Origin: Streptomyces clavuligerus
Lineage (GTDB): Bacteria > Actinomycetota > Actinomycetes > Streptomycetales > Streptomycetaceae
DNA: 64,000 nt
Assembly (NCBI RefSeq): GCF_005519465.1
Contig: NZ_CP027858.1
Location: forward strand, 6,435,001 to 6,499,000
Direction of reading: 5' to 3'
In this document: positions 37,080-48,422 of the stretch, piece by piece
Numbering within the stretch: the first letter of the stretch is position 1
Layout of the letters: each line of letters opens with the position of its first letter
Notes under the pieces: generated by a model
What the model saw: the letters and a program-made list of their open reading frames with translations, nothing else
What the model was told of the DNA's origin: nothing
The model's database searches: none
Program-made: the position numbers and the translations under genes

Positions 37080-38552
37080 TCACACCCAGCCGTGGATGAG
37101 GGTCGCCGCCTCGTCGAAGCCGATGCGTTCCGTGAGCCGTTCCTCCTTCGGGATGTAGGAGTGCGAGAACAGGCTGTAGACCCCACTCGAACCGACCGAC
37201 AGCAGATCCTTGAGCGGAGCGTTCAGCACGGTCTTCATATAGCTCTCGGACATACCGCCCCCGCTGAAGACATCGGCCGCGTAGAGCGTCCGTACCGCGT
37301 CCCCCGAACGCCCGAAGAACATCGGCGTTCCCGCGATCAGGCCCGCCGTGTCGACCTGTGCGACCCGGGCCGCCTCGGCGGGGTGCCCATGCCGGTCGAG
37401 AAGCGCGGTCCAGCCGTCCCTCAGCTGGGTGGTGTAGACGAGCGAACCCGGCCCCACCAGGGGCTTGACCCCCGCGTACAGCAGGACGCTCATACACAGC
37501 GCGACCGACGGGATGATCTCCTCGCGTTCCAGGTGGTCCCGGACGGCGGCGGGCTCCAGGGGCACGGTGAGGTGCCGGAAGCGCGGGTCCGCCGGTACCA
37601 GCTCCGACCCCTCGGCATAGAGGCGGAGGAGCCGGGGCCGGCCGGGGTACTTGCGCCAGAAGAAGTGGGTGCCCTTGTCGGCGGCCTCGTCCCAGGCGAC
37701 CACGACGCCCCGGAAGGCGTCCAGGACCTGCTGCCGGAACCCGGGGTCGAAGAGCGCGGCGGAGAGGAAGTTCTCCTCCGTGAGCAGTTCGAGAAGGCAC
37801 TCCCGGGCCACGTCCTCGGAGTTGGCGTAGAGCAACTCCGGGATGTCCCGGCGGAGTTCCCGGGCGAACAGCAGGGGCCAGGTGTGCCGCAGCGCGACGG
37901 CGAGCTGGTCGCGGTGACGGTCGGTGTGCGGGTGGTCGAGACCGTTGAGGAACCCCTGGTACTCGATCAGGAAGTCCTGGTCGTCGGGGGTGAAGCGGTC
38001 CCAGCGCCGGAGCGTGCGGAGCCGTTCCACGAAGTCGAAGGAGCGGACGCCCGTGTAGTACATCGCGTCACGGTGTTCCTTCGCCCGGAAGTAGGGGATC
38101 GTCTCCCCGCGGAACTGGAAGCCGTTGCGCATGTAATGGTTGCTCGGTGGCACATTGCTGCACGAGAACGTCACGATCGGCCGCCGGTCGCCGCCCCCCA
38201 CCAGCCGGTCCGCGTTGGCGATGATGTTGGTCCCCAGCAGCAGCGGATGGTTGAGGAGCTGATGGTGGTCCACGATGTTGATCGCGCGCACATCACGCGC
38301 GTCCACGGAGAGCCCCGCGGCGGCGGGCCCGAACGCCTGCCGCAGCACCCGCCGGACGGCGCGCGCGACGCCTTCCTGCCGCTCGGCGTGGACCGGGTCC
38401 ACCCAGGTCGGCTGGAGCCCCGCCGCGTACTCGCCCAGGGGCCTGTCGATCTCGAAGTACGGTGCCATGCTGGGCACGTACCGCCGGATCTGCCCCACGA
38501 TGGCGTCGAGGCTCGCCCTGATCCGTTCTTCGTCCATGTCCGCCTTCGTCAT
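37080..38552 (-). CDS. Unrecognised 490-residue protein of the hypEF cluster
   Basis: I do not recognise this protein. It is soluble, without signal peptide or membrane segments, and has the codon use of its neighbours. Possible functional segments are INIVDHHQLLNHPLLLGTNI (residues ~90-110, His-His and Asn rich), VTFSCSNVPPSNHYMRNGFQ (~128-147, one Cys) and FFGRSGDAVRTLYAADVFSG (~405-425). The start at 38552 has only a weak ribosome site and lies inside a 17-bp tandem repeat following hypF, suggesting coupling to it. It is the last gene of the leftward operon after the oxidase, hypE and hypF. It is probably a biosynthetic enzyme; this is inference from context only. Confidence 0.7.
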   Translation of the reverse strand: MTKADMDEERIRASLDAIVGQIRRYVPSMAPYFEIDRPLGEYAAGLQPTWVDPVHAERQEGVARAVRRVLRQAFGPAAAGLSVDARDVRAINIVDHHQLLNHPLLLGTNIIANADRLVGGGDRRPIVTFSCSNVPPSNHYMRNGFQFRGETIPYFRAKEHRDAMYYTGVRSFDFVERLRTLRRWDRFTPDDQDFLIEYQGFLNGLDHPHTDRHRDQLAVALRHTWPLLFARELRRDIPELLYANSEDVARECLLELLTEENFLSAALFDPGFRQQVLDAFRGVVVAWDEAADKGTHFFWRKYPGRPRLLRLYAEGSELVPADPRFRHLTVPLEPAAVRDHLEREEIIPSVALCMSVLLYAGVKPLVGPGSLVYTTQLRDGWTALLDRHGHPAEAARVAQVDTAGLIAGTPMFFGRSGDAVRTLYAADVFSGGGMSESYMKTVLNAPLKDLLSVGSSGVYSLFSHSYIPKEERLTERIGFDEAATLIHGWV

Positions 38553-38620
38553 CGCTCGGGGTCCGTCATCGCTCGGCCCTCGTCATCGCTCGGGCTCCGT
38601 CATCGGCCGGCCGTCGTCAT
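38547..38620. repeat. Five-copy 17-bp tandem repeat bridging hypF stop and next start
   Basis: CGTCAT recurs at 38547, 38564, 38581, 38598 and 38615, exactly every 17 bp, with related flanks (ATCGCTCGG). The hypF stop codon and the next gene's ATG both lie inside repeat units. Each unit places an ATG on the minus strand in a different frame. Confidence 0.9.
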
Positions 38621-40926
38621 CCGCCGACCCGGGCCGCGGCGACCATGGCCTGTCCCACGGAGAGCCCGCCGTCATTGGTGGGGATACGGCTGTGGGTGTA
38701 CACCCCGAGTCCGGCCCGGGTCAGCTCCTCCTCGACCCTGACCAGCAGATGCTGATTGAGGAACACACCGCCGCTGAGGACGGTGTCCGTCACCCCGCTG
38801 GAGTGCGACAGCCGCAGACAGACCTCCACCACCGCGCGCACCACACTCTCGTGGAACGTCCGGCTCACCCGCGCCGCGGAGCCGCCGGGGCCGGAGAGGT
38901 CCGACACCATCCCCTCCAGCCAGGGGCCGTGGTCGATGACGAGCCGGTCGTCCTCCTCCCGCAGCCGCACCGGCCAGGGCTCCACCGGGGTGTGGTCCCA
39001 GGCGATGAGCTGCTCCAGCTCGATGGCGGCCTGTCCCTCGTACCCCACCCGCCCGCACACGCCGAGCAGGGCGGAGCAGGCGTCGAACAGCCGTCCCATG
39101 CTGGAGGTCTCCGGCGCGTTCACCCCACGCGTGGCCATCTTCATCAGGACGCCGACCTCGAACGGGTCCCGCCGCCGCAGGAGGTCGAGCGGCAGGGTCG
39201 CGGCGTCGGCGCCGAAGTGCTGCGCCAGCAGGCCGATGGCGACCCGGTCGGGCTCCCGTACGGCCTTGTCGCCGCCCGGCAGCCGGAAGCGTGCCAGATG
39301 CGCCTTCCGCTCAAAGCCGCGGTAGTCGCCGATCAGGAACTCGCCTCCCCAGATGGTGCCGTCGGTGCCGTAGCCGGTGCCGTCGAAGACGACTCCTATC
39401 ACGGGCCGGTCCAGTCCGTTGTCCGCCATGCAGGAGGCCATATGGGCATGGTGGTGCTGGACTCCCACCAGCCGCACGTCCTGGCAGGAGGCGGCGTAGC
39501 GGGTGCTGTGGAAGTCGGGATGCAGATCGTGGGCGACATACCGCGGCGTCACACCGAAGACGGAGCGCAGATGCGCGATCGTGTCGGCGAAGAACCGCTG
39601 GTTGCCGAGGGACTTGAGGTCGCCGATGTGCTGGCTGACATAGAGGTTGTCGCCGCTGCCGAGACACACGGTGTTCTTGAGTTCCGCGCCGAGCGCCAGG
39701 ACGGGCGGCACCGGGAAGGGGGCCGGTACCGGGTCGGGGACATAGCCGCGGGCCCGCCGGACGAAGGTGACCTTCGGTTCGACCGTGCTGTGCACGACCC
39801 GGGCGATCGAGTCGTCCACCCGCATATGGATCTCGCGGTCGTGCACCAGGAAGGCGTCGGCCAGGCCCCGCAGTCCGCGCAGCGCCTCCTCCTCGGTACG
39901 GGCCATCGGCTCGTCCGGCGCGTTGGCGCTGGTCGCGATCAGGACCGGGCCGGCGGCGGCGAGGAGGAGATGCTGGAGGGGCGTGGCCGGCAGCATGAGC
40001 CCCAGCGTGGCGGAGCCCGGCGCGACACCGGGCGCGAGCGAGCTGTCCGGCCGGGCCCGGAGCAGCACGATCGGGCGTCCGGGGGACTCCAGGAGGCGCC
40101 GCTCCCGGTCGTCGAGCACGGTGTACTCCGCGGCGGTCGCGCTGTCCCGTACGAGCAGCGCGAACGGCTTGCTGCTGCGCTCCTTGCGCGCCCGCAGCTC
40201 GGCTGTCGCGGCGGGGCTGCGCGGATCGGCCATGAGCTGGTAGCCGCCGAGTGCCTTGACCGCCAGGATGTGCCCGTCCCGCAGCAGGCCGGCGGCGGTG
40301 GCCACGGGGTCGGCGGTACCGGCGTCGGAGCCGTCCGGCAGCAGCAGCCGGACCTGCGGGCCGCAGGACCAGCAGGCGGTGGGCTGGGCGTGGAAGCGCC
40401 GGTCCGCGGGGGACTCGTACTCGGCCCGGCACTCCGGGCACATGGCGAAGTCCGCCATGGTGGTCTTCGGGCGGTCGTAGGGGAGTCCGCGGATGATGCT
40501 GTACCGCGGTCCGCAGTCGGTGCAGTTGAGCAGGGGGTAGCGGTGGCGCCGGTCGGCCGGGTCGAAGAGTTCCCTGGCGCAGTCGGCGCACACATGGCTG
40601 TCCGGAGTGACCAGGGCTCCGGCCCCGCTCTCCGCTGTGCTGTGCCGGACGGTGAAGGAGGAGGTCCAGTCGCGCACCGGCTCCTCGGCGACCACGGCGC
40701 AGGTGTCGACGCGGGCCAGTCCGGGCAGCCGCTTCAGCAGCGCCTCGCCGAACAGGTCGGCCGCCTCCCGCGGTCCCTCGACGCAGATCGTGACGCCCCG
40801 GGCGTCGTTGCGCACCCAGCCACCCAGCAGATGCTGGGTGGCCAGGCGGTACACATGGGGCCGGAAGCCCACGCCCTGCACGAAGCCCGTCACCTCGACG
40901 GTTCTGCGGACGGCGTCGGACGTCAT
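38617..40926 (-). CDS. hypF: HypF-type carbamoyltransferase, orphan
   Basis: 769-residue complete HypF. It has an N-terminal acylphosphatase domain (VTGFVQGVGFRPHVYRLA) and two zinc fingers (CADC...CTDC and CPEC...CWSC). A YrdC-like nucleotide-binding domain contains KPFALLVRD and SANAPDEPMA. The C-terminal Kae1-like carbamoyltransferase domain has VQHHHAHMASCMADNG, DGTGYGTDGTIWGGEFL and LSGGVFLNQHL. HypF converts carbamoyl phosphate and ATP into carbamoyl-AMP and transfers the carbamoyl group to the C-terminal Cys of HypE. Its ATG overlaps the hypE stop by one base (TGATG). No hydrogenase or hypA-D genes are nearby, which is the key oddity. Confidence 0.94.
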   Translation of the reverse strand: MTSDAVRRTVEVTGFVQGVGFRPHVYRLATQHLLGGWVRNDARGVTICVEGPREAADLFGEALLKRLPGLARVDTCAVVAEEPVRDWTSSFTVRHSTAESGAGALVTPDSHVCADCARELFDPADRRHRYPLLNCTDCGPRYSIIRGLPYDRPKTTMADFAMCPECRAEYESPADRRFHAQPTACWSCGPQVRLLLPDGSDAGTADPVATAAGLLRDGHILAVKALGGYQLMADPRSPAATAELRARKERSSKPFALLVRDSATAAEYTVLDDRERRLLESPGRPIVLLRARPDSSLAPGVAPGSATLGLMLPATPLQHLLLAAAGPVLIATSANAPDEPMARTEEEALRGLRGLADAFLVHDREIHMRVDDSIARVVHSTVEPKVTFVRRARGYVPDPVPAPFPVPPVLALGAELKNTVCLGSGDNLYVSQHIGDLKSLGNQRFFADTIAHLRSVFGVTPRYVAHDLHPDFHSTRYAASCQDVRLVGVQHHHAHMASCMADNGLDRPVIGVVFDGTGYGTDGTIWGGEFLIGDYRGFERKAHLARFRLPGGDKAVREPDRVAIGLLAQHFGADAATLPLDLLRRRDPFEVGVLMKMATRGVNAPETSSMGRLFDACSALLGVCGRVGYEGQAAIELEQLIAWDHTPVEPWPVRLREEDDRLVIDHGPWLEGMVSDLSGPGGSAARVSRTFHESVVRAVVEVCLRLSHSSGVTDTVLSGGVFLNQHLLVRVEEELTRAGLGVYTHSRIPTNDGGLSVGQAMVAAARVGG

Positions 40927-41948
40927 CAGCAGAGCCTCGGCAACTGGGCCCCGTACAGCAGCTCGACGGTGGAGACGCGGCCGTCCGCGCCGGTCATCCG
41001 GACGGTACCGGCCCCACCGGCGTCCGCACCGGCGACAACCTCCCCGACCACCGCGGCCCGCGCGCACTCCGGATGGGCGTGCAGGGCCTTGAGGGCGGCC
41101 TCCGTCTCCTCGGCCGCGACGACCAGACAGAGATTGCCCTCGTTGGCCAGGTACATCACGTCCACACCGAGCATGTCCGCCGCCATGGCCGTCTCCGGCC
41201 GGATCGGCAGAACCGATGCGTCCAGCTCGATGGCGACGGCCGACGCCTGGGCGAACTCGTTGACGACCGTGCCGAGTCCGCCGCGGGTGATGTCCCGGAT
41301 GCAGCGCACCCCGTCCCCGCAGATGTCGAGGACGTCCGCGATGACATGGCTGAGCACCGCGCAGTCGCTGTGGACGCGCTGCTCGAACCCCAGCCCCTCG
41401 CGCAGCGAGAGGATATGGATGCTGTGGTCGCCGAGGAAGCCCGTGACGATGACCCGGTCACCGGCCCTCAGCGCCCGGCTGGAGAGGGTGAACGGACGCT
41501 CCAGCACCCCCACACCCGTGGTGTTGAGGAAGATCCCGTCCGCCTCCCCGCGCCGGACGACCTTGGTGTCACCGGCCACGATCTTCACCTCCGCGGCGAT
41601 GGCGGCATCCCTGACGGAGCGCAGGACACGGCGGAGGTCCGCCAGCGCGAAACCCTCCTCCAGCACGACGGCCAGGGTGAGATAGAGCGGCCGGGCACCG
41701 CTCACCGCGAGGTCGTTGACCGTACCGGCGACGGCGATCTTGCCGATGTCGCCGTTGCCGAAGAAGACCGGGTCGACCACGAACGAGTCGGTCGTCATCG
41801 CGATGCGCGGGCCGGGAAGCTCCAGCAGCGCGCTGTCCTCCATCTCACCGATATAGGTGTCACCGAGTATCCCGGCGATGGTCCCGGAGATGAGCTCCTG
41901 GCTCATCCCGCCACCGGCTCCATGGTCAAGGACGACCTTGTCTGTCAC
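40926..41948 (-). CDS. hypE: HypE-type carbamoyl dehydratase (thiocyanate-forming), orphan
   Basis: 340-residue PurM/SelD-fold ATPase. It shows VLDHGAGGGMSQELI, the ATP site TDSFVVDPVFFGNGDIGKIAVAGTVNDLAVSGA (in parts), VAGDTKVV, RDITRGGLGTVVNE and the diagnostic C-terminal Cys in PRLC. In hydrogenase maturation this Cys accepts a carbamoyl group from HypF, and HypE dehydrates it with ATP to an S-cyano (thiocyanate) form. All these features are intact, so carbamoyl-to-cyano chemistry is expected. GTG at 41948 follows AGGAGAGG. It is coupled to hypF and 36 bp after the oxidase gene. Confidence 0.94.
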   Translation of the reverse strand: MTDKVVLDHGAGGGMSQELISGTIAGILGDTYIGEMEDSALLELPGPRIAMTTDSFVVDPVFFGNGDIGKIAVAGTVNDLAVSGARPLYLTLAVVLEEGFALADLRRVLRSVRDAAIAAEVKIVAGDTKVVRRGEADGIFLNTTGVGVLERPFTLSSRALRAGDRVIVTGFLGDHSIHILSLREGLGFEQRVHSDCAVLSHVIADVLDICGDGVRCIRDITRGGLGTVVNEFAQASAVAIELDASVLPIRPETAMAADMLGVDVMYLANEGNLCLVVAAEETEAALKALHAHPECARAAVVGEVVAGADAGGAGTVRMTGADGRVSTVELLYGAQLPRLC

Positions 41949-41984
41949 GTGCCAACCTCTCCTGCTCGCGGCGTTGTGGTCTGG

Positions 41985-42701
41985 TCAGGCGGCGGTGCCC
42001 GCGGGCTCGGCGAGGGCCTTGCCGAGCAGGGCGTCCCACCAGACCTCCATGATCTGGATCGCGTCCAGACCGCCCTGGCGGACCACCTCCCGGTCGATCG
42101 CCTCGCCCTCGGTGAACGTGGCACCGGTCTGGTCGAGGTCCACGAACGCGGCCAGGCCGTCCTTGTGGCCCTGCTCCACCCCGTCCTCCAGGTGGATGTC
42201 GTGGAAGCGCTTGATCAGGCTGCCCTCGTAGGGGAAGCCCCGGCGGTCGGAGATCTCGCGGCAGATCTCGAAGAGGACCTCGTGTTCAAAGATGGCGGCC
42301 GTCTCCGTCGCGTACAGCGCGCCGAGCGCGCGCGACGGGTCCGGGGCACACAGCGCCTCGACCTCCGCCAGGAAGGCGGTGGTGGCCGGGAACTCCACCC
42401 GCTGGTCCATATCGGTACCGACATTCAGCATGCCCTGTTTGTACATCGGGGCGTGGCCGTCCTCCTCGTCCACGTTCCGCTGGAGCTCCACCGAGACGCC
42501 GGGCTCCGCGAGCGTCCTGGTGCACTCCACGGCGGCCTGGAGCAGACCGCAGTTCGCGAAGGAGAACTGGTAGTGCTCCATGACCAGCCACTCCAGCGAC
42601 TCCGTGCTCGCGGTGGGCAGTTCCTTCAGGAGCTTGCTCTTCACCGCGCTGGTGAACGCGTCGTTCCGTTCGTCGATCTGCACCGAAAGACGCTCGGTCA
42701 T
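41985..42701 (-). CDS. Heme-oxygenase-like di-iron oxidase candidate (HDO superfamily)
   Basis: 238-residue all-helical protein resembling the TenA/CADD-like heme-oxygenase fold. Candidate metal ligands in the expected order are Glu42/His43 (VMEHYQFSF), Glu80-x2-His83 (DEEDGHAPMY), Glu133/Glu139 (TETAAIFEHE) and His167/His170 with His179 (RFHDIHLEDGVEQGHKDGL). Members of this superfamily oxidise amino acids or amines (N-oxygenation, C-C cleavage, nitrile formation) using a labile di-iron site. AGAGG precedes the ATG. First gene of the leftward operon; it faces the isochorismatase-fold gene across a palindrome-rich region. Confidence 0.8.
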   Translation of the reverse strand: MTERLSVQIDERNDAFTSAVKSKLLKELPTASTESLEWLVMEHYQFSFANCGLLQAAVECTRTLAEPGVSVELQRNVDEEDGHAPMYKQGMLNVGTDMDQRVEFPATTAFLAEVEALCAPDPSRALGALYATETAAIFEHEVLFEICREISDRRGFPYEGSLIKRFHDIHLEDGVEQGHKDGLAAFVDLDQTGATFTEGEAIDREVVRQGGLDAIQIMEVWWDALLGKALAEPAGTAA

Positions 42702-42816
42702 GGCATACCTCTGCTTTCTCGCTGGCACGAAGGATGGAGCAGGGCGTCAACTGGCCCGTTCTCAGCGCCGGATGGGCCAGCCGACTCGGGTCGGGCTCCG
42801 GCGTCCAGGAGACTAG

Positions 42817-42828
42817 TTATACGCATGA
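42817..42828. promoter_or_regulatory. Operator-like half-palindrome near the leftward promoter
   Basis: TTATACGCATGA, an imperfect copy of the perfect palindrome at 42895-42906; the two share ATACG(C/T)ATGAC as a direct repeat 78 bp apart. It overlaps a TATAAC sequence on the minus strand, about 115 bp before the oxidase start. Confidence 0.5.
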
Positions 42829-42845
42829 CAATCTGACAAGCACTC

Positions 42846-42870
42846 AAAGTCCCTTGTCTGCAAGGACTTT
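42846..42870. promoter_or_regulatory. Inverted repeat at the centre of the divergent region
   Basis: AAAGTCCCTTG, loop TCTG, CAAGGACTTT: a 10-bp stem with one bulged C, midway between the two operator-like sites. It could be a regulator site or a hairpin. Confidence 0.5.
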
Positions 42871-42884
42871 CAGGGGGAGACCCG

Positions 42885-42913
42885 TTGCAGTCCTTCATAC
42901 GTATGACTAATGT
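42885..42913 (+). promoter_or_regulatory. Promoter of the rightward operon with embedded palindrome
   Basis: TTGCAG (42885-42890), a 17-bp spacer, then TAATGT (42908-42913) form a housekeeping-type promoter. The perfect 12-bp palindrome TCATACGTATGA (42895-42906) lies within the spacer, an ideal position for repression. Confidence 0.55.
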
Positions 42914-42968
42914 CCTGGGCGTCGGGTGCCCCGCCCTGGCGCCCCCCGGACTTCACAACGGAAGTGAC

Positions 42969-43553
42969 ATGTCCCGATACGCGGTCCTGACCAACGACCT
43001 CCAGCGCGACCTGGTCGACAAGAACGAACAGCGCAAGGCCAACGTGGAACGGATGACTCCGGACTTTCTGCGCTTCCTCTCGGAGCTGCGGGAACTGGCG
43101 GTCCCGGTCATCCACCTCCAGCTCATCTATGACGAGGGCGACAAGAAGCTCGAACTCCACGACGGCCGCATCCCGGTGCTGAGAGGCACGCCCGGGGCGG
43201 AGCTGCTGCCGGAGTTCGTCCACCCCTCGGACGTCGTCATGGAGAAGAAGAAGGACAGCGGCTTCTTCGAGACAAAGCTCCACGAGTACCTGGAGGAGCA
43301 CGCGATCGACACCCTGATCATCACCGGGATGCAGGCCCAGGTCTGCATCCAGACCACCGCCGCCGACGCGCACTTCCGCGGCTACAACGTGGTCGTCCCC
43401 TCCGACGGCGTCGTCTCGACGCGGGACGAGGACCGGGTCAGGGCGCTGGAGTGGCTCGCCTCGTACTGCGCGGTGGTGACCCCGATGGCCGATGTGGTCG
43501 CCCGTGTCCGGGACGGGGCCGGGTTCGACTTCTCCGTCCAGGCACTGCCGTAG
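42969..43553 (+). CDS. Isochorismatase-family cysteine hydrolase
   Basis: 194-residue hydrolase of the isochorismatase/nicotinamidase fold. The catalytic triad is visible: Asp10 (LTNDLQRDLV), the Lys cluster 93-95 (VVMEKKKDSGFF) and Cys126 (GMQAQVCIQTTAADA). Members hydrolyse amides, ureido groups (ureidoacrylate, N-carbamoyl compounds) or the vinyl ether of isochorismate; the substrate is not predictable. ATG at 42969 follows CGGAAG; an open frame to 42885 is non-coding leader. First gene of the rightward operon, 32 bp before the ureohydrolase. Confidence 0.88.
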   Translation: MSRYAVLTNDLQRDLVDKNEQRKANVERMTPDFLRFLSELRELAVPVIHLQLIYDEGDKKLELHDGRIPVLRGTPGAELLPEFVHPSDVVMEKKKDSGFFETKLHEYLEEHAIDTLIITGMQAQVCIQTTAADAHFRGYNVVVPSDGVVSTRDEDRVRALEWLASYCAVVTPMADVVARVRDGAGFDFSVQALP

Positions 43554-43585
43554 CCGGGCCGGGACCACAGGGGAGAGGAACCTCA

Positions 43586-44500
43586 GTGCAGGAGCTGACG
43601 GAGCCGGGCGCCCGGGCCTGGAACGGCCTCGCCGTTCCGCGCGGCGCGGCGGAACAGCCGGACGTGGTCGTCATCGGGGTGCCCTTCGAGGGCGGCGCGG
43701 GCGGCGCGGGCGGCGCCTCGCTGGGCCCCGGCCGGGTGCGCGAGCTGTCGAACCGGCTGAAGACGACCGACCGGCGCGGCCGGGACGCCTCCCGGCTGCG
43801 CCTGCTCGACCGGGGGGACGTGGAGACCTGGCGCTTCGACCTGCCCCGGACGATCGACCATGTCCGGGAGGTCTACCGGTCGGTGTTCGACGAGGTCACC
43901 GCACCCGTGCTGACCTTCGGCGGCGACCACTCGCTCACCTACCCGATCGTCTGCTCCGCCGCCCGGGGCCGGGATCTGGGGCTGGTCTGGTTCGACGCCC
44001 ACCCGGATGTCCTCGACGGCTACCAGGGCTCCACCATCTCCCACGGCTCCCCGCTGCGGCGGATCGTCGAGGAGGGTGCCGTCGCCCCGGAGAACGTGCT
44101 GCTCGTCGGCACCCGCGCCTATGACGCGGGCGAGGTCGACTTCATCCGCGCGAACGGCATCAACGAGGTGCCCGCGGCGGCCTTCACGGACGACCCGGCC
44201 GGGGCCCGGCAGAGGTATCTGCGGCAGCTCGCGGAGATCTCCGGGCGCGTCGGCGCGTTCTATGTCACGGTCGACATCGATGTCCTGGACGCCTCCTGCG
44301 TCCCCGGCACCGGCACCCCGGTGGCGGGCGGGATCGGCAGCGGCGAGCTGCTGGGTCTGCTGGAGGGGCTTCCGGAGCCCGTACTCGCCTATGACATCGT
44401 GGAGTTCGCACCGAGCCATGACGTCGGCGGCATGACCGGGCACGCCGTCATGGCGATCACCACCGCCTTCCTGGCCCGTATCGCCGCCGCACGCGACTGA
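43586..44500 (+). CDS. Agmatinase/arginase-family ureohydrolase
   Basis: 304-residue binuclear manganese hydrolase. Metal motifs are complete: [21 protein letters not shown] and [17 protein letters not shown]. The motif [14 protein letters not shown] is agmatinase-like rather than arginase-like. The family removes urea from guanidino compounds (agmatine, guanidinobutyrate, guanidinopropionate, proclavaminate precursors), so a guanidino, amidino or formimino substrate is expected in the pathway. GTG at 43586 follows GGGGAGAGGAA. It is 46 bp before the ATP-grasp gene. Confidence 0.9.
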
Positions 44501-44546
44501 CCCGCGGCAGCCGTACGGGCCGCACGACCCTCTCAAGGAGATCACC

Positions 44547-45854
44547 ATGGCTCCCTCCGGTGCGGCCGGGCCGCCCGCCTTCATCCTCTTCACGGACCTC
44601 CCGAAGGCCGGGGCCTATCTGGAGGCCATCGCCGCGCGCGGGCTGCGGAGCCTGGTCGTCACCGGGCCGCCCCAGTGGCCGCTGGAGGAGGTCGCGGTCT
44701 CCTATGTCGGCAGGCCGGGGCACCCCTTCGAGGCGGTGGAGCGGCTGGAGTTCCTCGCGGCCGGCGACCTCGCCGGGATTCTCCGCCAGGTCGTCGCGTG
44801 GGCCGCCGAGTACGACATCAGAGGAGTCTTCGCCTCGTCCGAGACCTTCGTGGAGCCCGGCTGGCAGACCGCCGACCTCCTCGGGCTCCCCGGTGTCGGG
44901 CCCCGGGCCGCGCGCGTCTGCCGGAACAAGCACCTCCAGCGGCTTTATCTGGCCGAGTGGAGCCCCGTCTCGGTGCTCTCCAGCGGCTCCCGCGAGACGG
45001 TCCTGACGGCCCTCGCCGACCGCTACCCCCTCATCTCCAAGCCGCTCGACCTCTATTGCAGCATCGGGGTCCGGGTGATCAGGGACCAGGAGGCCCTGGC
45101 GGCGCACCTCGACGAGGTGGCGCCGGAATCGCCGGTCCTCCTGGAACAGCGGGTGTCCGGACGCGAGTTCAGCGTGGAGACCATCGTCGCGGACGGTGTC
45201 CCGGTCTTCTCCGGGGTCACCCAGAAGTCGACCAACGAGGAGGAGGGGGACTTCTTCGTCGAGATGGGTCACACCCTGCCCGCCTGCAACCTCACCGAGG
45301 ACGAGGCCGGGCGGCTGAAGGAGGCCCAGGCGGCGGTGCTGGCCCGGCTCGGCTTCGGCACGGGCATGGCCCACGGCGAGTACCGCGTCCTCGCGGACGG
45401 CCGGATCGCGCTGATGGAGATCGCGGCCCGCCCGCCGGGCGACGGGATACTCCACCTCTACGAACTGGCCACCGGCGCCTCGATCGAGGCATCCGTGGTG
45501 GACGCGGCGCTCGGCCTGCCCGTGCGGCACCCGGAACCCCGCCGCTGGGCCCGGCAGATCTACTTCGACCACGCCCCGGGGAAGCTGGACGGCGTCGCCG
45601 TCGACGGCCACGCCGGGGTGGACCCCTTCTGGGTGGTGGACCACGGCCTGTGGCCCGCGGTCGAGCCCGCCGGTCCCGAGGCGCCGCCCGGCCTGAGGAA
45701 GGTCCTCGTGCTCAAGGCGCGCGGCGCCGGACTGGGGCCGCTGTCCGACTCCTTCGGCCGGGCCGTCACCGCGCTGTTCGACGCCCCCGACCCCCGGCGG
45801 CTGGAGCAGTACGACGCGACGGTCCGTGAAGCCGTCCGTATCACCGTCAGTTAG
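44547..45854 (+). CDS. ATP-grasp ligase
   Basis: 435-residue ATP-grasp enzyme of the biotin-carboxylase-like type. It has ADLLGLPGVGPRAARVCRNKHLQR, nucleotide-binding PLISKPLDLYCSIGVRVI, LLEQRVSGREFSVETIV, and metal-binding GEYRVLADGRIALMEIAARPPGDGI. Such enzymes activate a carboxylate as acyl phosphate and join it to an amine, often forming dipeptides or amides in antibiotic pathways. AAGGAG precedes the ATG. The end is close to the exporter gene, fitting a biosynthesis-plus-export operon. Confidence 0.88.
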   Translation: MAPSGAAGPPAFILFTDLPKAGAYLEAIAARGLRSLVVTGPPQWPLEEVAVSYVGRPGHPFEAVERLEFLAAGDLAGILRQVVAWAAEYDIRGVFASSETFVEPGWQTADLLGLPGVGPRAARVCRNKHLQRLYLAEWSPVSVLSSGSRETVLTALADRYPLISKPLDLYCSIGVRVIRDQEALAAHLDEVAPESPVLLEQRVSGREFSVETIVADGVPVFSGVTQKSTNEEEGDFFVEMGHTLPACNLTEDEAGRLKEAQAAVLARLGFGTGMAHGEYRVLADGRIALMEIAARPPGDGILHLYELATGASIEASVVDAALGLPVRHPEPRRWARQIYFDHAPGKLDGVAVDGHAGVDPFWVVDHGLWPAVEPAGPEAPPGLRKVLVLKARGAGLGPLSDSFGRAVTALFDAPDPRRLEQYDATVREAVRITVS

Positions 45855-45909
45855 CACACCCGTCGGCGCGAGCCGTCCGACGCGGCCGGAGCAGGGAGAA
45901 GACGCACCC

Positions 45910-47229
45910 GTGGGACAAGGGCCCAGCACGACGCAGGGCGAGGAGAGCGCCACCCCACCGCCGAGGGCCGGGTGGGCGCTGCTCCGGCGCGCACTGAGAC
46001 GTTTCCCGAAGTCCCGGGCGGGCCGGGTCTTCGTCCTCATCGCGTTCGTGGACGCCTTCGGCCGGGGCTTCTTCCTCGCCGGTTCGACGCTCTTCTACAC
46101 CCAGGTGATCGGGCTCAGCACCGCGCAGGTCGGCCTCGGGCTCTCGATCGCCGGGCTCTTCGGGGTCGCCTGCGCCATCCCGACCGGATGGCTGGCGGAC
46201 CGGTTCGGCGACGGCCCGGTCCTGATCGCGCTCCAGCTCTGGCGCGCCGCGGCCTTCCTCGTCTACCCCTTCGTGGACGACTTCCGGATGTTCCTGGTGG
46301 TCGCCTGCTTCGTCGGCGCGGTGGAGCAGGCCGTCGGGCCGATCATCCAGTCGGTGGCCGGAGCGACGGCCGAGGAGGGCTCGCGCGTCGGCGCCATGGC
46401 CCTCATCGCGGTGGCGCGGAATTCCGCCTACGCGCTTTCCGCCGTGATTGCCACGGTGGTCATCACCATGGCCGACTCCCGTACCTATGTCGGCTTCGTC
46501 CTGGCCAACGCGGCGGCGTTCCTGGTGACCGCCGCACTGCTGACCCGGCTCAGGCTCCCGCGCCGGGGGACGGGCGGGGACGGGCGGTCCGGGCCCCGGG
46601 GCGCCAAGCTGCTGCCGTTCAAGAACGCGCGGTTCCTGCTGCTCTCGCTGGCCAATGGAATTCTCTATCTGCATGTCCCGATCCTGTCGGTGGCGTTCCC
46701 GCTCTGGATCGTCACCCACACCGAGGCGCCGCGCGGCCTGGTCGGCGCCGCCCTGGTGGTGAACACCGTGCTCGCGGTCTCGCTCCAGGTGCGGCTCAGC
46801 AAGGGCGGCGACGACATGGCGCACGCCGGTCGCAAACAGCGGGCCGCGGGACTGGCGCTGGCCCTTTTCTGCGCCCTGACGGCGGTGACCGGACCGGCGG
46901 ACGCGCTGACGGCCGGAGCGCTGCTCCTGCTCGCCGCCGTACCGCTCACCCTGGGTGAACTGTGGCAGTCGGCCGGTGGCTGGGGCATCTCCTACGGTCT
47001 CGCCCCCGAGGAGCAGCGCACGTACTACCTGAGCGTCTATCAACTGGGGGCCACGGGCATGACGGTGGCGGGCCCGGCGCTGCTCACCATCGCCGTCGTC
47101 GACACGGGTGCCACCGGCTGGCTCGCCCTCGGTGCCGTGTTCGCCGTCACCGGCCTGGTGGTGCCGCTGCTGGCGCGGGCGGTCGGGTCCCAGGACCCGG
47201 TTCCGGCGGGGTCCGGGCCGGGCGACTGA
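45910..47229 (+). CDS. MFS exporter of the hypEF cluster
   Basis: 439-residue major facilitator with about 12 membrane segments. It starts with a basic cytosolic stretch (RRALRRFPKSRAGR) and TM1 FVLIAFVDAFGRGFFLAGST. The MFS loop is IPTGWLADRFGDGPVLIAL. The C-terminal half includes LPFKNARFLLLSLANGILYL. It resembles small-molecule efflux transporters. I chose GTG at 45910 (GGGAGAAG upstream); GTG at 45826, overlapping the ATP-grasp gene, is an alternative. It is a likely self-protection or product exporter for the cluster. Confidence 0.85.
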   Translation: MGQGPSTTQGEESATPPPRAGWALLRRALRRFPKSRAGRVFVLIAFVDAFGRGFFLAGSTLFYTQVIGLSTAQVGLGLSIAGLFGVACAIPTGWLADRFGDGPVLIALQLWRAAAFLVYPFVDDFRMFLVVACFVGAVEQAVGPIIQSVAGATAEEGSRVGAMALIAVARNSAYALSAVIATVVITMADSRTYVGFVLANAAAFLVTAALLTRLRLPRRGTGGDGRSGPRGAKLLPFKNARFLLLSLANGILYLHVPILSVAFPLWIVTHTEAPRGLVGAALVVNTVLAVSLQVRLSKGGDDMAHAGRKQRAAGLALALFCALTAVTGPADALTAGALLLLAAVPLTLGELWQSAGGWGISYGLAPEEQRTYYLSVYQLGATGMTVAGPALLTIAVVDTGATGWLALGAVFAVTGLVVPLLARAVGSQDPVPAGSGPGD

Positions 47230-47414
47230 CCCCGGCCGCGACACCTGTGATGCTCCGTCAGGTCCCGTGCGAAATGGCCGGTGATACGGGGGAGGCGATT
47301 TCCGTCCGGCCGGTACGGTACACAGATGGATGGCCGTGAAATGCAGAGAACCAGAATGGCGCCGCGGGCGAAGGAGAGGGAAAGCACAAAGGATTTCGGG
47401 CGACAGGCGGATAC

Positions 47415-48422
47415 ATGAATGGAAACGATCAGCTTCGCACCATAACGTCCAATGATGTAGCGCGCGTGGCAGATGTGTCCCAATCAACGGTTTCGCTGGT
47501 CCTCAACGGCAAATGGCAGGGCAGGATTCGCGAGGAGACCGCGCGGCGTGTGATGGCGACCGCCCACGATCTGGGGTACCGGATCAACCAGTCCGCCCGG
47601 AGTCTGCGGCTCGGGAGTACGGGCACGGTGCTCCTGGTCGTCCCGACCCTGGTCAACCCGGCCTTCGCCGCCGTCCACGCGGGCGCGGCCCGTGTCGGCG
47701 CGCAGAACGGCCTGGGTGTCGTGGTCTTCCCCCTCAGCGCGGAGGACGGCTTCGGCCCGTTCCCCGCGCCCCGGCAGGCGCTCGACGGAGTCATCGCCTG
47801 CTCGCTGTCGGCGGAGGTCGTCTCCGGTCTGCGGGGCGGGCTCCCGCTGGTCGTCCTGGACGACGCCCCCACCCCCGGCACCCCGGCCGTCACCATGGAC
47901 ACCGGCGGCGGGATGGCGAAGGCGCTGGCCCATCTGACCGAGCTGGGGCACCGGCGCATCATGCATCTGCGGGCCCGGCGCCGCGCCTGGACCCTCGCCC
48001 GGCGGGCGGAGGTGTTCGACCAGTGCACCCTCAGCCATCCGCAGGTGAGAGCGGATCATCTGGTGTGCTCCTTCCTCCCGGCCGAGGTCCGGGAACGGAT
48101 GGTCGAGGTGCTGTCAGCCTCCCCCCGCCCGACGGCTGTCATCTGCGACGACGACAACATGGCCATGGGGGTCTACGCCGCCGCCAGGGCGCTGGATCTG
48201 AGCATCGGCGAGGATCTCTCCGTCGTCGGCTTCAACGATCTGCCCGTGGCGGCCCTGTCCTCGCCGCCCCTCACCACCGTCCGGCTGCCCCTCGGGGAAC
48301 TGGGCTCCCGCGGGATGCGGGCCCTGCTCGACCTGCGCAACGGAACGGTGAACGAGCCGGTCTCGCTCCTGACCGAACTCATCGTGCGCTCCTCCGTCGG
48401 CCGGGTGTCCGAGGACATCTGA
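47415..48422 (+). CDS. LacI-family transcriptional regulator
   Basis: 335-residue regulator with an N-terminal LacI helix-turn-helix and hinge (SNDVARVADVSQSTVSLVLN then IREETARRVMATAHDLGYRI NQSARSLRLG) and a periplasmic-binding-protein-like sensor (GTVLLVVPTLVNPAFAAVHAG to DLSVVGFNDLPVAALSSPPLTTVR). It is at the end of the rightward operon after a 185-bp AT-richer gap and may have its own promoter. It is the natural candidate to bind the palindromes at 42817-42906. The effector is unknown, possibly a pathway intermediate. Confidence 0.92.
   Translation: MNGNDQLRTITSNDVARVADVSQSTVSLVLNGKWQGRIREETARRVMATAHDLGYRINQSARSLRLGSTGTVLLVVPTLVNPAFAAVHAGAARVGAQNGLGVVVFPLSAEDGFGPFPAPRQALDGVIACSLSAEVVSGLRGGLPLVVLDDAPTPGTPAVTMDTGGGMAKALAHLTELGHRRIMHLRARRRAWTLARRAEVFDQCTLSHPQVRADHLVCSFLPAEVRERMVEVLSASPRPTAVICDDDNMAMGVYAAARALDLSIGEDLSVVGFNDLPVAALSSPPLTTVRLPLGELGSRGMRALLDLRNGTVNEPVSLLTELIVRSSVGRVSEDI

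Follow-up and report, generated by a model that had tools for sequence, protein, structure and literature searches.

This study concerns a 64,000-nucleotide stretch of the Streptomyces clavuligerus genome (NZ_CP027858.1, positions 6,435,001 to 6,499,000; hereafter the window), in which a gene pair encoding members of the HypF and HypE families faces a gene for an isochorismatase-fold hydrolase. Our analysis indicates that these genes and their neighbours probably form a cluster for small-molecule biosynthesis, driven by a HypF-HypE-isochorismatase cassette of its own, which would make a protein thiocyanate and pass the cyano group to a small molecule. The initial annotation of this DNA had proposed that HypE/HypF chemistry was recruited from hydrogenase maturation into a cluster with its own export and regulation; this proposal is strengthened by a separate hyp set in the genome, by conserved neighbours, by ten further loci and by a distinct HypE clade. 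To our knowledge, hydrogenase maturation is the only process for which HypE/HypF chemistry has been described. HypF carbamoylates the HypE cysteine and HypE dehydrates the adduct to a thiocyanate or isothiocyanate (PMC12134894, PMC4506123 and PMC6022934, in the passages available), and the function known for HypE is the supply of CN to iron (PMC12134894, likewise in part).

The window HypF and HypE are paralogues that stand apart from the hydrogenase copy. Both exceed their family cut-offs (HypF, TIGR00143, 735.6 bits against 466.1; HypE, TIGR02124, 401.8 bits against 251.6) and HypE ends in LPRLC, confirming that both are complete and that HypE keeps its terminal Cys. The pair lies at 6,474-6,477 kb. 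Some 190 kb away, at ~6,285-6,292 kb, we found a second hyp set, hypABFCDE, of which hypB, hypF, hypC, hypD and hypE are over their cut-offs and hypA is slightly under (83.7 vs 88.1 bits); a [NiFe]-hydrogenase large-subunit match that passes the Pfam cut-off lies beside it at ~6,296-6,298 kb. The window hypE and hypF are therefore paralogues, and we ruled out that they are the hydrogenase's own copy. The genome has one HypD match, outside the window and adjoining the other HypE ~190 kb away, and both of its over-cut-off large-subunit stretches are likewise outside the window, where the pair has no HypC/HypD scaffold of the kind used in [NiFe]-hydrogenase maturation. hypA, hypB and hypC were found in the second set (L005 among our locus handles), outside the window, no genome-wide search having been made for these three. 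The window thus gives no hydrogenase large-subunit or HypD match, in line with the annotation, and the pair is an orphan locally; it is not one genome-wide. The concern raised with that annotation, that a hydrogenase elsewhere might rely on this sole hypEF copy, is answered by the separate set adjoining the hydrogenase gene.

HypF, HypE and the isochorismatase recur together in other genomes. Of 333 Streptomyces genomes, 192 gave a HypE match, and we compared the places of HypE and HypD in 50 of these, picked for a weaker score or for at least two matches, together with G349. Fifteen over-cut-off HypE places lie away from HypD: five clusters of the window's type and ten others. The proposed search for hypE-hypF pairs away from hypD thus returned ten more loci, and in every one HypF and an isochorismatase adjoin HypE, with identities to the window proteins over the best segments of 51-57% (isochorismatase), 53-55% (HypE) and 47-50% (HypF). 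HypD gave no match in the ~19-21 kb surrounding each of the 14 cassettes outside the window. The constant partner across the three contexts is the isochorismatase, which the initial annotation had not singled out.

Four of the ten loci (L062, L063, L067, L071) have a nonribosomal peptide synthetase (NRPS) context, the NRPS domains having been checked on L062 and L067. They carry a pyridoxal-phosphate (PLP) enzyme, which in L067 resembles fluorothreonine transaldolase and serine hydroxymethyltransferase, under the cut-offs; in none of the four did we see a labelled match to the oxidase of the window, in a comparison that is not exhaustive for such folds. Genes for a TauD dioxygenase, a fatty-acid desaturase and a PLP decarboxylase lie within ~20 kb in L067 (with L088 and L089). 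The other six loci (L064-L066, L068-L070) are of an ATP-grasp/aminotransferase type, with a diaminobutyrate-transaminase-like enzyme, a major facilitator superfamily (MFS) transporter, an M20 peptidase, an ATP-grasp-like protein (weak NCBIfam matches) and an MboA-like heme-oxygenase-fold protein, all checked on L068. An additional ATP-grasp family is present in four of the six stretches (checked on L066), some of which end mid-locus. MboA itself acts as the acetylenase in the biosynthesis of mangotoxin (PMC13185094, in the part available). A 236-residue protein encoded after the aminotransferase (L068:14745-15455) has no Pfam or NCBIfam match, and each of the six loci carries a member of its family.

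We looked for a hydrogenase large subunit in 8 of the 15 cassette genomes, using the Pfam cut-off. Four have one (G000, G045, G282, G294) and four have none over the cut-off (G087, G209, G278, G349), G209 and G278 each giving a 22-bit match under it. In G087, G209 and G278 there is no HypD match either. In G349, HypE and a partial HypD sit on a different contig; the missing hydrogenase may reflect an assembly gap there, and the case for independence from hydrogenase is therefore slightly weaker.

A maximum-likelihood tree of 60 Streptomyces HypE proteins separates the 15 cassette members from 45 others with 100/100 support. The 45 are not a random draw: they comprise the 30 best-scoring HypE, 14 chosen from the HypE/HypD comparison, and L005. 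The branch between the groups measures 1.24 changes per column on one side of the midpoint and 0.81 on the other, and long branches meet at this split, as the tool warned. HypD adjoins all 45 non-cassette HypE (44 of 44 in an added test, plus the window genome's own), and the split is therefore strengthened. The C-terminus reads PRLC in 15/15 cassette proteins and PRIC in 45/45 others and in E. coli. Six columns are fixed differently between the groups: three lie in the C-terminal tail, and at another the Cys of E. coli C259 is Ala in the cassette type. Invariant in all 60 are 67 columns, among them those that correspond to E. coli D83, K133, E272 and C336; the first three we take to be the catalytic dehydratase residues. 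The cassette HypF proteins keep the eight zinc-finger Cys in 15/15 cases. On these residues, the cyanation machinery appears retained and the partner-facing tail of HypE changed.

In the window the cassette is part of a larger cluster, which recurs in four syntenic loci (L009, the same locus as L017, and L015, L016 and L018). The nine genes, all of them open frames at or very near the positions first annotated, and two operator-like sites are as follows, with counts referring to these five clusters.

37080..38552, minus strand: U490, 490 residues, predicted BshC / class-I lysyl-tRNA-synthetase-like fold, possible ligase
38617..40926, minus strand: HypF paralogue, carbamoyltransferase family, with acylphosphatase, zinc-finger, YrdC and Kae1-like domains in that order
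40926..41948, minus strand: HypE paralogue, carbamoyl dehydratase family, C-terminal PRLC, over the family cut-off
41985..42701, minus strand: HOx, CADD-like heme-oxygenase-fold oxidase (DUF3865); open frame reaches 42728, likely start 42701
42814..42831, no strand: operator-like palindrome copy 1 in the divergent promoter, 2 mismatches to TAGTCATACGCATGACTA
42892..42909, no strand: operator-like palindrome copy 2 in the divergent promoter, 4 mismatches to TAGTCATACGCATGACTA
42969..43553, plus strand: isochorismatase-fold cysteine hydrolase, the cassette partner; open frame from 42885, likely start 42969
43586..44500, plus strand: ureohydrolase, nearest solved relatives 3-guanidinopropionase and proclavaminate amidinohydrolase
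44547..45854, plus strand: ATP-grasp ligase, amino-acid-ligase-like, in 2/5 clusters
45826..47229, plus strand: MFS transporter, in 5/5 clusters
47415..48422, plus strand: LacI-family regulator, in 4/5 clusters

The two likely starts were taken from the annotated copy in S. clavuligerus F1D35. That copy is on a 278-kb linear plasmid record, and the cluster here lies ~265 kb from one end of a 6.75-Mb contig. A family search of the window proteins gave the isochorismatase, arginase-family, ATP-grasp, MFS and LacI domains, in agreement with the facing operon as annotated.

The cluster behaves as one unit. U490, HypF, HypE, HOx, the isochorismatase, the ureohydrolase and the MFS transporter are present in 5/5 clusters, and neighbouring genes are kept in all four clusters other than the window, which removes the objection that the surroundings of hypEF might not be conserved. 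The co-occurrence initially suggested for the oxidase, U490, the ureohydrolase and the ATP-grasp ligase holds for the first three; the ATP-grasp gene, present only in the window and L009, was rejected as a core or defining gene. LacI has no match in L009; lacI lies beyond U490 in L015, L016 and L018 and beyond the MFS gene in the window. L016 has a nitroreductase-family gene between the ureohydrolase and MFS genes, and no gene flanking the segment from U490 to LacI was found common to the loci in a screen of frames filtered by codon composition. U490 was found in 5/392 Streptomyces genomes, the genomes of the ten other cassette loci not being among them, and strong oxidase matches (398-405 bits) fall in the same five; weak ones (26-60 bits) in six other genomes were not counted as orthologues. 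For nine U490/oxidase pairs in the protein database the exact size of the longest contig coincides, which suggests that the two are linked there as well. Elsewhere, U490 occurs in 1/396 Actinomycetota-wide genomes (the window's own) and in 2/100 relatives, and a first scan of genome contigs gave one relative. Among plasmids, U490 has one record and the oxidase four, three of the latter at <60% identity; viral contigs and phages gave no U490 relatives, and viral contigs no oxidase relatives.

U490, which had been called unrecognised, has a predicted fold that matches BshC, class-I lysyl-tRNA synthetase (LysRS) and MshC. This assignment to the catalytic-domain fold of BshC / class-I aminoacyl-tRNA synthetase (aaRS)-like ligases comes solely from VIA-align: Pfam and NCBIfam gave no match at E <= 0.001, PDB sequences nothing useful, plain Foldseek of the predicted structure against the PDB nothing at E <= 0.001, and a sequence profile of U490 found no BshC. 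The protein carries invariant His residues and an invariant NIxDHHQ motif, possibly HIGH-like, and on its modelled fold is a possible ligase. In the F1D35 record (L019:20001-21472, NZ_CP065243.1) the annotation has two adjacent hypothetical proteins in its place, matched in two pieces, and it appears to be split there. Homologues occur in several Patescibacteria lineages (e.g. P0159, P0168, P0207); Patescibacteria have reduced genomes, and a natural-product role there is unlikely for that reason.

The oxidase scores 30.1 bits against Pfam DUF3865, just under the cut-off of 31.6, and its predicted seven-helix, CADD-like fold agrees with the heme-oxygenase fold first assigned to it. Its closest solved structure is an uncharacterised CADD-like protein of Nostoc (23% identity). 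E88, H92, E142, H176, H179, E185 and H188 are among the residues invariant in 33 sequences and are candidates for the 3His/3carboxylate ligand set of heme-oxygenase-like dimetal oxidases. A DUF3865 oxidase relative with 50% identity (P0143) is annotated in Legionella gratiana.

The isochorismatase belongs by fold family to the isochorismatase-fold cysteine hydrolases, and its D38, K121 and C154 (numbered from 42885), presumably the Asp/Lys/Cys triad of that family, are invariant in 15/15 cassettes. Its match to biuret amidohydrolase is far under the cut-off; among structures, an N-carbamoylsarcosine amidase-related one gives a weak match, ranking behind an uncharacterised isochorismatase hydrolase. 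The ureohydrolase has an arginase-family domain and the GGDHS, DAHxD and DxD metal motifs in its translation. A DcsB-like hydrolysis of hydroxyarginine was considered for it and dropped, since 3-guanidinopropionase and proclavaminate amidinohydrolase score best among solved relatives (DcsB itself was not compared).

The divergent promoter between HOx and the isochorismatase contains the near-palindrome TAGTCATACGCATGACTA in two copies in the window, L015, L016 and L018, and the window's two copies are its sole matches in the 64 kb. Within 5 mismatches there is no copy in L009, which has no lacI, in the ten other-type loci or in L005. The motif was derived from these same promoters, so its presence is partly circular; the joint absence of motif and lacI is non-circular and rests on one locus, L009. 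The paired palindrome and the LacI gene point to shared regulation of both operons, with LacI as the putative ligand of the sites.

In the mechanism that we favour, HypF would use carbamoyl phosphate and ATP to carbamoylate HypE at its C-terminal Cys, and HypE would dehydrate this adduct in an ATP-driven step to HypE-S-CN, both proteins being expected from their sequences to act as their families do. In hydrogenase maturation, HypCD receives the CN on iron; here another partner would take over. For the cyano transfer and the other steps beyond HypE-S-CN, and for the product, we infer a course from the genes. The isochorismatase with its invariant Cys would be the most likely partner, relaying or directing the electrophilic CN to a substrate that derives from an amino acid and offers a nucleophile, and it appears the best candidate for this relay or for a step common to the three pathways. 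Pathway-specific enzymes would supply the nucleophile, here the oxidase, U490 and the ureohydrolase: the oxidase would prepare or finish the substrate, U490 would form an amide or similar bond to it, and the ureohydrolase would strip an amidino group. In clusters that have the ATP-grasp ligase, this enzyme would attach an amino acid; the MFS transporter would export the product and LacI would control both operons.

A wider reading, plausible to us although we lean slightly against it, is that of a general portable cyanation cassette, which would turn carbamoyl phosphate into a protein-bound electrophilic cyano donor for at least three pathways and install a nitrile, cyanamide, cyclic guanidine or aminooxazoline, the last two once an adjacent amine or hydroxyl has closed a ring. 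The diaminobutyrate-transaminase-like enzymes of the ATP-grasp type and the threonine-transaldolase-like enzymes of the NRPS type could supply suitable nucleophiles.

Several points weigh against a cyanating biosynthetic cluster. The retained HypE residues permit cyanation without proving it. The product, which the initial annotation took for a nitrile, cyanamide, thiocyanate or guanidine type of molecule or a cyanide-ligated metal complex, and the cyano acceptor are postulated from the gene content. The isochorismatase may simply be an amidase of the usual kind, with a substrate that the pathways share. U490 also has homologues in several Patescibacteria lineages, for which no gene context, hyp or other, could be seen. 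Orphan HypE loci were counted in 50 chosen, not random, genomes, and the cassette is rare outside Streptomyces in our samples (isochorismatase in 2/276 genomes of the class, both Streptomyces). We did not count eight HypE-like places away from HypD that fall under the cut-off; the two of these that were read (L086:1-1901, L087:1-1901) encode proteins that lack the C-terminal Cys as well as the counterparts of D83, K133 and E272 and probably represent another AIRS-fold enzyme.

The cassette might instead deliver a carbamoyl group, with HypE as a thiocarbamate carrier and the isochorismatase passing or trimming carbamoyl on the product. TobZ and GdmN are small-molecule O-carbamoyltransferases. 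Such enzymes are counted as relatives of the HypF transferase domains in the available part of PMC6022934, and the weak biuret amidohydrolase and N-carbamoylsarcosine amidase-related matches of the isochorismatase also fit. We nevertheless consider this explanation unlikely: HypE would be superfluous, the window domain order is that of HypF and the reverse of that in the O-carbamoyltransferases (same part of PMC6022934), and the checked dehydratase residues are kept in 15/15 HypE, while the two Cys-less HypE-like proteins lost them too. That HypE cyanates a metal centre of a cluster protein, such as the oxidase at its dimetal site or U490, to give a non-hydrogenase Fe-CN cofactor, is less probable still. 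The supply of CN to iron by HypE (PMC12134894, in part), the predicted metal binding of the oxidase and the invariant His residues of U490 are in its favour; neither U490 nor the oxidase was seen in all three contexts, however, U490 having been found in five of 392 genomes, those of the ten other loci not among them, and the oxidase having no labelled match in the NRPS-type loci by a non-exhaustive comparison, and no HypD scaffold lies nearby in the ~19-21 kb stretches.

A catabolic or detoxification operon consuming an unusual nitrogen compound, in which HypEF make or dispose of cyanide-like groups, would agree with LacI-type control and two hydrolases, but HypEF spend ATP and carbamoyl phosphate, and elsewhere the cassette accompanies NRPS and ATP-grasp genes; we regard this as similarly improbable. 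Least credible is a redundant second hydrogenase-maturation copy, which full-length HypE and HypF with active-site residues might suggest. The hydrogenase has its own adjoining hyp set, the cassette HypE form a separate clade with six fixed differences, half of them in the tail, and the cassette is found in genomes with neither HypD nor an over-cut-off hydrogenase match.

If the cyanating cluster is real, a separately evolved HypE clade travelling with an isochorismatase extends HypE/HypF chemistry to small molecules and offers a new route to C-N triple bonds. A HypE ending in PRLC, with no hypD nearby and an adjoining isochorismatase, would provide a handle for genome mining, and U490, a conserved family reaching several Patescibacteria lineages, now has a structural assignment. 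The sole account of hypE/hypF in a biosynthetic-type cluster that we found in the full-text literature, whose coverage was partial and scarcely included subscription journals, is a 2020 paper (PMC7794033). In its available passage, a decRiPPter candidate family combines Streptomyces hypE and hypF with an ATP-grasp gene and no other hyp genes, and a 'novel function' is proposed. This family probably corresponds to our ATP-grasp/aminotransferase type (L064-L066, L068-L070), not to the window's type, and that passage makes no mention of an isochorismatase, U490 or a heme-oxygenase-fold enzyme. New here are the ten further cassette loci in other Streptomyces, two more contexts and the separate HypE clade.

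Compared with known systems, the ureohydrolase has proclavaminate amidinohydrolase and 3-guanidinopropionase as its nearest solved relatives, and no gene of the clavulanic-acid pathway is among the annotated neighbours of the cluster. HOx is like the heme-oxygenase-like dimetal oxidases CADD, UndA, BesC, AetD and MboA in predicted fold and in candidate metal-ligand residues; its nearest solved structure, the Nostoc protein, is uncharacterised and 23% identical. U490 shares its predicted fold with BshC, class-I LysRS and MshC; its identity to BshC is 8%, its sequence profile did not recover BshC, and it has conserved motifs of its own. Finally, the window pair shares with the HypF-HypE branch of [NiFe]-hydrogenase maturation the enzyme families, the domain order, the checked residues and the C-terminal Cys of HypE. 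It differs from that branch in having no adjoining HypD, a PRLC instead of a PRIC tail, and an isochorismatase as its constant neighbour.

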